DNA of 64,000 nt from Polytrichum commune (lineage: Eukaryota > Streptophyta > Polytrichopsida > Polytrichales > Polytrichaceae): NCBI GenBank assembly GCA_950295325.1, contig OX485807.1, positions 38,904,440 through 38,968,439 on the forward strand, read 5' to 3'. Made by a program: the position numbers and the translations under genes. Positions 17,174 through 27,500 of the stretch are shown piece by piece (the stretch's first letter is position 1; each line of letters begins with the position of its first letter). The notes under the pieces are model-generated. The model made no database searches and was not told the DNA's origin. It saw only the letters and a program-made list of their open reading frames with translations.

Positions 17174-20100
17174 TCAAATGGTGATGTACTTTACGACTGC
17201 ACCTCGTATCTTCTCCATAAACTTCACTGCTTGTTCCTGAATGCACATCAAAGTCTGTGAGGATTGTGTTTTTTGGTCATTTCAGTATGTCACAATAAAC
17301 ACATCCTACAAGAATTTGTTGTGATTATGGCACGAATAGGTTTGAGTGAAGATCTAGATTACCTGCAGTTTTCACATGCGACTACTTTGAGCTTTGGAAT
17401 TTAAGGTCTATAAGTATTTTATTTTCCTTTTCTTTCATCATCTGATTTATTTTATTTGTCTTCTATTTCTATCTTGATGACCCAGTTCTTTGCCTTGGAA
17501 AATTCAAAGCAAGAGCCTCCACATTGTTCCACAGACCTTGAACTTTCACCTGTTCACCTTTTAGACAAAATCTTGAGGACACGCTGTCCTTCTGATAGAC
17601 AGAGCTGACTCTTACTCAATACTTGCAATCAAGCAACATTCAGAATAGGAATTCAGATCCGGATGGGACTTCAATTCTTTGGTACCTCGTTAGCTTTTGA
17701 AGCTGCAGCAATGTTCTCATCCAGAAGCGCCAAAAGAGGCCGGTCCAGCTCCGACTCTCCTGCCATCTCTAGCAACTGCAAGCCACAAACTGCGCCTTAG
17801 ATGACAGGAAACAAAAAACCGCAGTGCCTCTTTCACATACGTTACGTAAAATGTAAGGTGAGAAAAATAAAATCGCTTCATACAAGGAACCCAAAACAAA
17901 GTCGTTTTTCTTATATTTGAGTTTAATTGGATTTCGTATCTTTAAGTTCATGAAATGATTCCAATGTTGCCACCAGTGTGAGATATGGTGTTGCCTCATC
18001 TTGAAGTTAGTCTAAATCTATATGTATTTCTCAGACAGACATCACAAGGATTAGCGGGCCCTCGAAGACTGTTGACTCCTTCAAAGGTGAACACCTTGAA
18101 CGAGCACAGACAAGCCAACCTGCACCTAATCTTCCCTAAGGGCAAGCCCCTATGTTCCCACATGATTAGATGAAAAAATCCACTTCACCCAGACACTCCC
18201 ATTATGATTGGGTGGATCACAAGTGATAGGGTGCACTGAAAATCAAGTGCTTGGAAGGTCACCCATCCAAGCACTACTCCGGCCTTAACACTGCATCTCT
18301 GTATCATTATCCCTGTAATCATGAACCTTCTCACAACTCTAGTGCTCTCTCGTTTATCAGCAAAACATGGATCCATCCACGTACAGGCTAAATTTTAAAC
18401 TCTACCACCCTTTTGTCAAAATTCATGCAGGCTGAGTTGTGAAAAACAAGCTGGAAAGCCATGCTACATGTCCTTACTGTGGCACGCTTGTCCTTTGAAG
18501 AGAGTATGCGAGCCAGACGTTCCTTTGCTCCGACAAGATCTACAGCCAGTTTATCGTATGCTTCTGCAAGTGCCACTCAAAATCCATCAAAAACAGTGTG
18601 TGGGTCACTTTCTTCCCTTCAACCACATTTGAGCACTGCAGGACCTTTGCAGACTTCAACAAAAAATCTCTTTTCCAGCCAAAGACTTTCATCATCCCAG
18701 GGGGAGGTCACTTTGCTGTAGGGATATGAACCATGTGAGAAATATTTCCGAGGGGAGTTATGAAGTAATACACATATTCATGTGATGTTCCGCACATTTG
18801 TTGGACATACTCAGAATGTACCTAGTATATTCTGAGAATGTAATTCCAATTCCCTAATTTTTTTAACTTATATAATTCTTACTTTGAGACATAAATAGGA
18901 CAACCTATCTTGTATCACACCTAAAATTCCAGTGAACGGAAGTGAACACCCCCCCCTCCCAGGCTCTTCACAAACATGTGCAACATTTCTAGAACCTCAA
19001 GGATATATGGCACCAGTATCTACCAATTCCTTCTCTCAAAACCTTTTGCAAGGCCTCGAGCTCGCCCACCCTGTCCTCAATAGCCTGAAATAACATCACA
19101 AAATCCGGAATCAACACAGACCTTTGCTGCATTGCAAACATGTCCAGGCAGTGCTGTAATGCTCTACTAAAAACAGGATGAAAATGCATAATATAAATGT
19201 GGCATGTAGAAGGAGCTTACCGGTGTCTGGTTTGCACCAAACCGGAGAGAGCCAATCTCAGACTTCAAATATGCAAAGAAATCCTCTGTGAGTCTGTGTA
19301 CAACATCCACACCCCGTTAACACTCAACAAATTTTGAACTTTCTCAAATGAGAGGGTAAAGTGTGTATGGCAATGTGCATGGACTTTACCCTTAAAAACC
19401 TGAGTATAGCATTTTCTAAGATGTGTCATACAATAACATCTCCAAAGGTATCTTAAGAATTAGCACAAGAGAGAGGTTGTGAGGCATCATTGAAGGATCC
19501 CGTGATGAATTTAGAATTTGAAATATTGAATTTCATCAGAATCAGATTTTGAAATTATAATCTACAGTATCCATAGCTTTGACATAATTGGCTGAAATTA
19601 CATTACAGACACTATAAATTGGTGGAAGGTTGCAAGCATGATATGATCTTGGAGTACTGAAACTGTCAGAATCTCACTTGAGATTTAAGCCTCTTTGTGG
19701 TATAGAGGAGAACCAGTCATAAAATTTTATGATTGAGCTTTTGGAGGTCATAGACAATATTAATACCTTTGTCTAGGAAAGAAGTTTATTGAAACAATAA
19801 TTATTTTGAAGCAAGATCCCATCATTTGGAATTGAAAGTCTTCTTGTTTAAGCATTAAAATTATGGGTTGAGTGTTGGGCAAAGCAGTTGAGAGGCACTC
19901 CTGTGGCCTCAGTGGAGTCACCCAGTTACTCATGTCATCCAATTTCCAAACAGAAATTACACCAGATAACTAAGTCTCTTTTGAAAAAAACCTATGGGTC
20001 TGATTATCCACAAGGTGATGAAAGGATACCATTCAGATGGTTGAAGTCAAAGATTGAAATACCTTGGTCGGCAGCGCGCAATCTCAAAATCCATCTCTTG

Positions 20101-22065: not shown

Positions 22066-24581
22066 GCGTGCACACTTCCTTCTTGTCTAATTCTTTCCTG
22101 TCCTTTCCCTTGCTTGGTATCTTAGCTTCAATTACACCAACTCCCTCACCGGATTGTGGCTAACTTATCTTCCTCTCTTCAAATATCTCAGGCTCTCGCA
22201 TACAAGAATTCGGGCTTCATTCATCAACCTATGTGTTTGTCGAATTGGGGCTGTCCGTCGCCATGGATGGGATGGAGCACTTTGTGTTGCAGATGAAATT
22301 CGTATGAAAGTCGGCGTGCTTGCTTGCTTGCGGCTCACCATTCTTGAAGAGATGGGTACCTTATCCATCCATCCGGACTCCCCAAATTAATTAGGCTAAA
22401 TAGAATAGGCCTTCTAAGGGTGGGTTTATGGGCACCAAGTAACTTATTGGTCTGGTGTTTGTAAGGTGAATGCAATGGTATCATTAATCAACATCATTAA
22501 TGGTATCAAAGAACCTACACGTGAGTATCATCAAAATTGTGATACTAGTCAAATATTGATGTATGGTGCGTATCTCAAGGTGAGACAATCTACGTTGTTA
22601 TTCGGGTCGATATTATTCTAAACCATCATTTTGACACTAGAACAAATTTATCTAGGTATGACGGTTCTGGCTTGGTATATAGACTCAAATGGTATTGAAA
22701 GCAAAATTGCCGTTAAATATCCATACCCTATTGGTATCAAAAAATGTGAAATCCTCACTATAGATACGTGAATCATATAAAAAAAAGGAAAGACGATACT
22801 AGACAAACATTGGTTTACACTATAGGGAACATTGGTTTAGCATTTAAGAGTGTTGGAGTTGAGGAGTTTACAGTGGGATATGGGTCCAGGGTATAAGAAA
22901 ATGTGGTGGCACTAAGTTAATGTGGCATCACTTCCTCGTCAAATCTCAAAGGTCCCACCTCAAGCAAATACTCCTAGTTTGAGAAACCAATCTCTAAGCT
23001 CAGGTCCAATCTTGAGTCCAAAAGGAAGTTATTTTGTACCCCAAGTTTCTTGCACTGAGATCCTTATGTAAACCTACCCTAAGTTGCACCAAACCAAAAC
23101 TAGATGCCACGAAAACAATGTGTTTTTCATCCAAGTGGGGGCCAAGTGGAACTCATCCCAAATTTGCCCAGTGTCACCATACATGTCAATTTGTTGACTG
23201 TCACCAATGTTTAACCGCTTGGATGAATGGGAACTTCAAAGTTTCTTACCATCCTAACATCACACCTCTAGGTATCAACAAATTTTGAACTTAGAAAAGG
23301 TGGTGGCTACATCTAATGGTTGGCAGTCGCTACACGTTGCTCTTGACCCTAACCCCTCTTGCATGCCCGCCCTATTGCATAACTCATTTGTAGCCATCTC
23401 ATCTTCATTTGTAAATTGAAAATTATTGGGTTGATCAAGAACTCTCCTTGATATAGAATCCACATCTTAGAGTCTTGATTTTATATATAAAAAGAGTGAA
23501 TTGTTGGAAAATATTGGAGGGTATTGTAGAGGGAACTAGGTCTATTTAATATTTCTACCTAATGCCATAATGTATTTTCTCTATGGGCTTTACAAGTGGG
23601 TAGTTACTAGGGTGAGAATGAAATGTGGCAAAATTTGAGAGGAACACAATGATGTTTTTGTCGGTATAGACACTACATTATCATTTAGAGCCCTCTACAT
23701 TTATTAGAGCTTGTGGTGGAATTGAAAGTTCATCATCGAAAGCAACCAAGGTATGGTGTCCCAACTTGTGCTATAATTAAGGAGCCAATGTGAGAATATG
23801 TATAAGGCATACTAGGGTATTAGAAGCAATGAAGTGATTGAGTGGCACAACAACTCTTAATTTAAGGTAGACATCCCTTATTTGGTTACTCTTCTTAAAA
23901 GACACCTTTATTTGAGTTATATGTGGTTTGGTGTGACTCCAAGAATGGATATCAAAAAGACATGTGTTTAAAAGAGATTAGATGCGTGTTCAAAATATGA
24001 CAAGGCCATTAAATGAGCATGAGAATCTTCACTCTGATAATGAATAAGATAATTCATATGAGCTCCAAAATTTATGACAAAAGTGGCTATGGCCTCAATT
24101 TGGATTTGCTAACCATCTTGTACTAATCGTGTGTCTCATATCCTAGGGGAAATGGGCTAGTTGGAATGATGTGATACTCGGAAAATGCACATTTGTGCAG
24201 TGGGGTGGTGCTTTGCAACTTGTGTTTAAAAAACTGAGCCCACTTCAAGCAAGTCTTTTGGAAAAATATTTTAAAATAACGCAAAAAAATGAAGGGAAGT
24301 ATGAAGGGATTGTAGGAGCTGCTCTCAACTGATAAGTACATGGTTGTCCTACATTTTTGCAAAAAACAACCACTTCATCACTCCTCAACATTCACCAGTC
24401 GAAACTAACAACAATCTCTCGCAACTCCTCCAAAAAGTCGATTGCATTTTGATTTTCGTGATGACAGAACTCACTTAACTTAGATGCTTCGCAGAATTTG
24501 AAGCAAACGGAGGCAGAGTTCGGAGTCTATCTGTGAATCACTGAGTGTGCAATTATCCAGTTGTTCAATTGTTCAATCTCA
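22066..24581. other. Divergent intergenic region between the coiled-coil and Ycf49-like genes
   Basis: This 2.5-kb segment separates two divergently transcribed genes and must hold both promoters. The first 350 bp upstream of the minus gene is GC-richer. No clear TATA box or other regulatory site could be assigned. A family D dispersed repeat lies near 23.9-24.2 kb. The plus frame at 22154-22390 is not recognised. Confidence 0.5.
23930..24165 (+). repeat. Dispersed repeat family D, copy 1
   Basis: Contains GTGTGACTCCAAGAATGGAT, AAAAAGACATGTGTTTAAAA, GAGATTAGAT, CTTCACTCTGATAATGAATA and GCTAACCATCTTGTACTAAT. The same blocks, in the same order and strand, recur near 42.5, 47.0, 55.9, 58.2 and 62.4 kb. 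Class unknown; no termini identified. Confidence 0.65.
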
Positions 24582-27500
24582 ATGGCAGCGATGGCAGCAG
24601 CCCTGCCCTCATCGCTGCTGTCCGCCAACTCCACTTCCACCATCTCCCACAAGTCACTTGCTAGGAATCCCAAGCCACTCACATTTCTACCTGGTTGCAG
24701 AATTTCCCAAACACAACGCCATAGCCACACCCATATCCAAATCTATAGCCAAAGCCGTAGCCATAGCCATAGCGATGACATAGCTCCCTCATGTAGTTTC
24801 TCTCTGTCACCTGCATCGAGTCCCTTTGGAAACACGACATATAATAAACCATTGAAGCAGCATTGCAGAGATTATGGCAGAGATTTAGTGATGAACGGTG
24901 GTGAAGAATCCGTTCCAAGTATGGCAGTTGGGTTAGGCGGTGTAGGTGTAGTGGGAGTTGTTGGTGCAGGGATGATGATGATGGTGGTGGTTCCGGAGAT
25001 GGCACATGCGTCCGAGATGGTGGTTTCAAATGTCTCAAATATTGTAAATGTGGATGATGCCTCCTGGTCTGCTCTTGTCGCGTCGGAGCCGAAGAATGCC
25101 CTTTCTCTGCCCACTTGGGTCATTCATGTGGCGAGCGTGGTGGAGTGGTGAGTCTTTCTTCTAAAATTCTCTTCAACAGGTTATGATGCTATCTATCCCT
25201 TTTGTTAAATGCATTTGGGACTGGAATTCCTTGAAGGGGAATGAATCATCATCATCATCATTATTGTCACAAAACCCTCCTTTTTGTTTTGAGTGTCTTT
25301 GCCTTCTCTTGCTGCTTTTGTGTTTCCTTGACTCGGTAGGTCGAGAGGTATACTCCTTGAGTGTAAGTCTTTGGAATTCCATGTGGGTTAGGGGTTTAGG
25401 GTTTGGGGCATGCCATGCCTTTGTAACGCATATATGTATGTGCAATTCAGTGAATGGAATGGTGAGGCATCCATATCTCGTGATGATTTGAAGATAGGGG
25501 GGTTGCGGGAAAGTGAACTCGCAAAAGTACAAATCACCATGATGATTGTGATTAGACAGGTTATGAAATCCCGATTGAAACGAATATCGAACTACTATAC
25601 TATCAATGGTAAGGTGGTGTTCACCTCTGAAAGGAGGCAATATTCTTCAGAGTCCTTTGAAAGGAGGCAATATATCGTGATGACGTTCGTTTCGGAATTA
25701 CATATAGAATTTGACTGTCTTGAAGGATTTCATGGGAACTCTTAGGCTAATCCACCTAAGGTCCGAATAGTGCTCGGATGGGTGACCTTTCTAGCACTTG
25801 ATTTCTGGTGCACCCTACTGCCCTGCCCTACTATGGTCCACCAAATCATAGTGGGGGTATCTGTGTGAACCAGATATTTGAACCACCCTTACGAGCTTGC
25901 TGTGGGGAGAGATTAGGTGCAGGCTGGCTTGTCTGCGCCCGTTCCCATTCAAGGTGGTTACCTTTGAAAGGAGGCAATATTCTTCAAAGGTCCCTCTAAT
26001 TTTCGTGATGTGTGCTTCAGAATTACATGTAGAATTAAACTATCTTGAAGATGAAGCAACACCATAATTCACATTGGTAGCGACATCGGAGTCATATCTC
26101 TCTCTCTCTCTCCCCCTGCGCATCTGATCCTTGGGTCTCCGCATAGTTTATTTCACACATCTCTTTGGAGCCTGCCGGAATTCTTTTGGTATGGTAACTC
26201 GCATTTGAATCTGATGGTTTTGAGATTCAGTGTCCTTTTCTGAAGTGCATTTTGAATGCTGGTCTGAATACATTTCGTAAATTTTGCAAATGTGGGAGCC
26301 ACATTACCCTGAGGTTTGGGGTAAAGTGGGAGCTGATGAATGTGAGTGGGGAGTGGCGGCAGCTGGTCTCTGCCATGCAGGAGGTTGTTAGACTTTGTGT
26401 TTGGTTCTCGTGAGGTTCAGAACTCATTTCGTGAGATGGAGCTCACAAATGCTCTCTCACTTCCCACCTGGTTTATCCATGTGGCCAGCGTTGTCGAATG
26501 GTAAGTATCACCCTCATTCTGAATTCATCTCTTTAGATCATTGCCTCTTTTGGGCTCTCTCTCACTTCATTGGGTCTTGCAAGCGCAAGCAATCTGGGTG
26601 AAGAGTGAACTGTTCCAAAATAGGTATTTTCCTTCATGTATTCCTTTGGTTGTAAACGCATTGAACACGAACAAGCAATATTTCTAGCTTCTAAAAAGGT
26701 GCACCTGCCAACACCATGTGAGAGAAACAGACTACATGTAGTGGAAAAGGGGAAAGCAAGGAGCTTCTAAACCTTCGAGTGAGTAATTCAACAAATTTTG
26801 GAGTCGTATTCCAGTCCACCTGAAGGTATCATGTGTGTTCAAAGAAAGTCATGTACATAGCAGTCCACATCATGTATGATGTGGCTCCCTCTTTTGTTGA
26901 TTTTACCCCAAACTATTTGTTGTGAGGTTTCTACATACTATATATATTTTCACTGGTACATACACTGTCCAGTGGTCTTCTGCTCTGTAAGAATGGAATC
27001 TGCACAAAGAAGATTTTGAAAGTCTGAGGGCATTTTTGCAGGATAACTGCAATGGGACTGGTGTGGCGATACGGTGACACCCCAGGCAAATCCACATGGA
27101 AGGGCCTTTCTTGGGGAATGGTATTTTCTATACACTAACCCTTTGAGGCTATTTGATCCACATGAAAGCAAAATATTGTGAGAAATATTGTGGTCCGAGG
27201 AGAGTGAGCTCCAAGAGTTCAAATAAGTTCCAAAGCACATAATTGTGATTCTTGTTCTTGGCAATTTAATATTGAAGATACCTAGTATGCATACACATGC
27301 AAATGTTTTCCCACATGACTCAGGAATTGTTCACCTGCATTTATGGAACAAATATGACTTCTTTGTCGTTCCAATTTTTTTGGGGCTAAGGGTTTTGCAA
27401 CACTAGGGCTCATTACCATCATTTGCCTATGGCAGGTGCCTTTGTTGGGTGGAGCAATGTGTGCGTGCACCTGGCATTTCTACTACAATGCTCAGTCTTT

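Follow-up and report, generated by a model that had tools for sequence, protein, structure and literature searches.

Background

SINEs with a 5S rRNA head (SINE3) have been reported from vertebrates and some insects (PMC7245038), and AfuSINE3 represents them in Aspergillus (PMC5063351). PxSE4 and PxSE5 measure 389 bp and number 4415 and 1952 copies, respectively, while ObSE2 and PxSE4 are a tRNA-headed and a 5S-headed family with a common remainder (PMC8010984). Plant SINEs have been reviewed as tRNA-derived and mostly A-tailed (PMC9033089). Cassandra carries a 5S promoter inside its LTRs (PMC10853983, PMC10886601); insertion of a SINE3 into an LTR has been proposed as one origin of this arrangement (PMC10886601), and the Cassandra paper ties such promoter capture to SINEs in animals. 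P5SM, by comparison, lies in an exon of TFIIIA and mimics the structure of 5S rRNA (PMC5972288). The first-pass annotation of the DNA studied here had held that 5S-headed SINEs are known in animals and not widely reported in plants; vertebrates, insects and fungi are on record, and our search of freely accessible papers returned no 5S-headed SINE from a plant.

In this study, we analysed a stretch of 64,000 nucleotides of Polytrichum commune (hereafter the window) and searched the 408-Mb assembly, with its seven large contigs, for relatives of a 5S-like element found there. We are highly confident that what survives there is an old copy, truncated at its 5' end, of a SINE3-type SINE with a 5S rRNA head; we name this family S5.

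Results

The element lies in a phase-0 GT..AG intron of the host gene (17776..18477, minus strand), predicted from the sequence and the flanking reading frames. The 5S-like stretch occupies 18288..17952 of the minus strand, in the same sense as the host gene and about 175 bp upstream of the intron acceptor. An element of this kind, in sense within the intron, had been placed at 18030-18330 by the first-pass annotation; its presence and orientation are confirmed by the sequence and by a score of 49 against the genome's own 5S gene (1000 dinucleotide shuffles: mean 19.7, maximum 38), while its borders have to be redrawn, the true extent running about 80 bp beyond 18030. As the score exceeds the shuffle maximum, the likeness goes beyond the 12-bp C box, and it spans GGCCGGAGTAGTGCT through that box. 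On the plus strand, a neighbour at 24537..25151 matches DUF2499.

The S5 profile matches 17952..18288 (minus strand; consensus 62-398) with 360 bits and an E of 1.8e-109, at a divergence of 16.1% from the consensus, comparable to that of sibling copies. What is left of the 5S-derived head (positions 62-120; 18230..18288, minus strand) holds an intermediate-element-like GGAGTAGTGCT and the C box GGATGGGTGACC (18257..18268, minus strand), the latter identical to the C box of the genome's own 5S, and both GGAGTAGTGCTTGGATGGGTGACC and GTGCACCCT sit within 18280..18229 of the same strand. The copy opens at position 62 of the consensus, so that it lacks the A box together with the first half of 5S, and upstream of 18288 no family-type 5S head was found (score 14; shuffle mean 14.5). 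Behind the head, again on the minus strand, come the SINE body (18069..18229), which by sequence comparison is a segment common to S5 and a second family, F2, and the 3' part (17952..18068), delimited by aligned copies and the profile match, whose pyrimidine tail has worn away (ATCATTTCATGAAC). The flanks offer short duplication candidates only, none of them convincing. The Rfam 5S family misses this copy, which is truncated and diverged, and with E values up to 10 allowed, the 5S covariance model found nothing in the region; across the window, Rfam returned nothing above its cut-offs, and the weak hits that it gave around the element resemble noise.

The search for further copies uncovered a dispersed family. 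With the window element as query, 1604 first-look candidates were obtained, and 40 scored places had about 77-81% identity; the 3' half of the element retrieved a further candidate set ending at the same point. Three non-overlapping patterns of 27-34 nt matched 744, 682 and 870 times with at most 3 mismatches, and their reversed controls never. Because the other two patterns were present in only 7 and 8 of 30 loci picked solely by the exact C-box pattern, the total is put at roughly 3,000 copies, a rough figure. A long, CpG-rich body pattern gave 24 matches only, an under-count of S5 copies. S5 is thus a dispersed multi-copy family with fixed ends, a non-5S body and a tail. Its copies lie 9-20% from the consensus (mean 14.6%), mostly through C>T and G>A changes, and nothing suggests constraint on them.

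A second copy (positions 31-400) lies in the window at 25725..26100 of the plus strand (318 bits, E 1.2e-96; divergence 15.3%), and an S5 fragment (positions 254-350; 25616..25725, plus strand; profile match E 1.2e-15) is fused ahead of it. Head-to-tail fusions with internal overlaps, like this one at 25616-26100, were also observed in L029, L068, L069, L071, L090 and L091. Plain SINE insertion does not explain such tandem fusions, which may stem from template jumping or recombination.

Copies aligned with their flanks showed that full elements of about 400 bp consist of a 5S head (1-120), the body, the 3' part and a CTTT-rich tail, with a fixed start, AAGGGTGGCTTAAACCCAAGGCC, and a fixed end, GGTGGCAACATTGGAGTCATC, followed by the tail in variable length. 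The 5' end falls within about 2 nt of the start of the genome's 5S. Positions 1-120 scored 104 against that gene (shuffle maximum 41); the head and 5S positions 1-93 agree in 75 of 98 aligned columns, and positions 121-399 were at chance. The S5 profile itself picks up genuine 5S genes with E about 1e-15; the 5S heads of single copies stay below the Rfam cut-off (best 32.3 of 38 bits). Boxes A, IE and C of the type-1 Pol III promoter keep the order and spacing that they have in 5S, the distance from GTTAAGC (A box) to the C box being 23 nt in both, and the window copy has lost the A box. Target-site duplications scoring at least 9 were found in 12 of 41 full-length copies, against 1% of mispaired-flank controls; they come right after the tail and are mostly 8-17 bp long, the best being a perfect 14 bp. 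The anatomy of S5 is that of SINE3. In the 3' flanks of L017, L024, L025 and L020, the pyrimidine tails are shortly followed by CAG, in the manner of 3' splice sites, and sense copies might favour exonisation through such tails.

Two flanking sequences (L027:2985-3279 and L035:2000-2330), which represent F2 and match the body of S5 alone, about position 121 to 281, were compared with S5. The matching segment begins where the 5S part ends. The F2 body scored 91 and 93 (shuffle maxima 62 and 46), the S5 head was at chance against F2, and the 3' part was weakly alike (34 and 33 versus shuffle maxima of 39 and 38). A profile built from these two sequences recovered the majority of S5 copies, its matches being confined to that body segment (best E 7e-10). 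F2 is itself dispersed, with 178 and 199 first-look candidates. In both copies its head carries, at corresponding positions, motifs that resemble an A and a B box and are separated by 32-33 nt (P 0.006 and 0.045), and no tRNA covariance match was obtained from Rfam at E up to 10; we would call this head tRNA-like by its A/B-box likeness only. As F2 shares the body of S5 but bears a different, tRNA-like head, an exchange of heads on one common body, in one direction or the other, seems indicated.

The genome's own 5S differs at 21 of 119 positions from the angiosperm type. Several chromosomes bear isolated 5S genes with high scores (L036, L037, L043, L049), and some of these have C/D snoRNA matches within about 1.5 kb: snoR31/Z110/Z27, snoZ159 (twice), and U36a with SNORD14. 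At L046:954-1619, a partial 18S rRNA match with gaps is followed some 65 bp further downstream by a 5S gene on the same strand, and at L041:1501-2818 two identically scoring 5S genes stand in opposite orientation about 1.1 kb apart. Diverged 5S-like pairs about 180 bp apart, which are not S5, were seen in L055, L060, L062 and L063, on C2, C7 and C4. Among other sequences, a nearly perfect hairpin of about 90 nt at L074:430-522 fits miRNA precursor models on either strand with scores under the cut-off, and may be a MITE or a miRNA-like foldback. A match over the full length of the MIR1023 family, to our knowledge a moss-specific miRNA family, scored 68 bits with an E of 3.8e-12, the curated cut-off being 90; along with the divergent 5S and the seven large contigs, it points to a moss as host.

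Discussion

The first-pass annotation had offered two readings of the window element, a 5S-headed SINE and a splicing switch resembling P5SM. The former is supported by the large number of copies, by their fixed ends and target-site duplications, and by the type-1 promoter spacing within the 5S head. Source copies of S5 would be transcribed by RNA polymerase III and TFIIIA from the internal 5S promoter, and their RNA would be copied into the genome through target-primed reverse transcription by a LINE enzyme. The partner LINE is perhaps of the RTE type, since the S5 tail is a short tandem repeat. The 5S head was probably joined to a body that is also used by the tRNA-like-headed F2. The window copy, judged on its sequence, is most likely dead, drifting neutrally and doing nothing to the host gene; lacking the front half of 5S with the A box, and as diverged (16%) as its siblings, it lends no support to a regulatory role in the intron.

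Of the other explanations, exaptation of the window copy as a cryptic exon or splicing element of the host gene fares best, though we consider it very improbable. Sense SINE tails could supply polypyrimidine tracts, S5 tails are pyrimidine-rich, and the insertion is in sense not far upstream of an acceptor; however, the tail of this particular copy is worn away, and its divergence equals that of neutral copies.

The window copy would, in another reading, be the solo LTR of a Cassandra-type TRIM, that is, a plant LTR retrotransposon whose LTRs contain a 5S promoter. A repeat of some 400 bp that bears 5S sequence and is dispersed through a plant genome would fit this, and Cassandra is widespread in land plants (PMC10853983, PMC10886601). 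However, the 5S part of S5 is at the extreme 5' end and not within an LTR, the element begins with AAGGG and closes with a CTTT-rich tail, and no LTR pair was seen among the copies, which occur singly. LTR elements make target duplications of about 5 bp, unlike those mostly found at S5. On end structure, duplications and single copies we reject a solo LTR, to which we attach hardly any probability.

Equally hard to credit is the splicing switch, in which ribosomal protein L5 would bind a 5S mimic in the pre-mRNA of the host gene and so control how this pre-mRNA is spliced. The similarity to 5S and the intronic position in sense speak for it. However, nucleotides 1 to about 61 of 5S are absent from the window copy, and because this front half is missing the 5S fold cannot form, nor did the 5S covariance model match; the copy sits in mid-intron, shows the ordinary, neutral divergence of its family and has related copies by the thousand elsewhere. 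Those exons of the host gene that were tested matched no Pfam family at a meaningful level and gave no useful solved-structure match, results that neither bear out nor contradict the first-pass label of a plastid-protein gene; no zinc finger was matched in them, no such motif occurs in their translations, and no TFIIIA-like domain is found. TFIIIA P5SM is therefore rejected, there being no zinc finger in the tested exons and no mimicry of 5S structure. That the element is an ordinary 5S pseudogene spread by chance has next to nothing in its favour: 5S-like genes and fragments are indeed scattered through the genome, but all full copies carry the same 280-bp non-5S body and 3' part behind the head, which contradicts this origin, and S5 patterns recur hundreds of times.

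A 5S-headed SINE being the reading that we retain, S5 resembles the described SINE3 families (zebrafish SINE3, HaSE3, PxSE4/PxSE5, AfuSINE3) in its 5S head with A, IE and C boxes, its body and its target-site duplications, and PxSE4/5 are much like it in size and copy number. A LINE-like 3' region is a feature of SINE3, and S5 too may share its 3' end with a partner LINE. S5 is unlike known SINE3 in its plant host, in a head that follows the host's own 5S type and in its CTTT-rich tail. With about 3,000 copies, this plant family extends 5S-headed SINEs from animals and fungi to land plants. F2 and S5 share a body as ObSE2 and PxSE4 do, in another host kingdom and with the tRNA nature of F2 taken from A/B-box likeness only, and would provide a further instance of 5S and tRNA heads being exchanged on a shared body.

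Within plants, S5 is like the known SINEs in being short, non-coding and dispersed, with an internal Pol III-type promoter, and differs from them in having a 5S head and a pyrimidine tail, versus a tRNA head and mostly A tails. With P5SM, the window copy has in common a 5S-like sequence in sense within a pre-mRNA, but it is a truncated intronic SINE copy that fails as such a mimic on position and completeness; 5S-like stretches in plant introns can thus be SINE remnants and not regulatory mimics. S5 and Cassandra are both non-coding plant retroelements with a 5S-derived Pol III promoter; however, Cassandra is an LTR retrotransposon, whereas S5 lacks LTRs, starts with 5S sequence at its 5' end and has duplications of the SINE type. 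On balance we lean, by a narrow measure, towards regarding S5 as the first lineage of 5S-headed SINEs to be described from land plants, of the kind proposed as donor of the Cassandra 5S promoter, and it supplies the class of element that was missing from the hypothesis that Cassandra took this promoter from a SINE.
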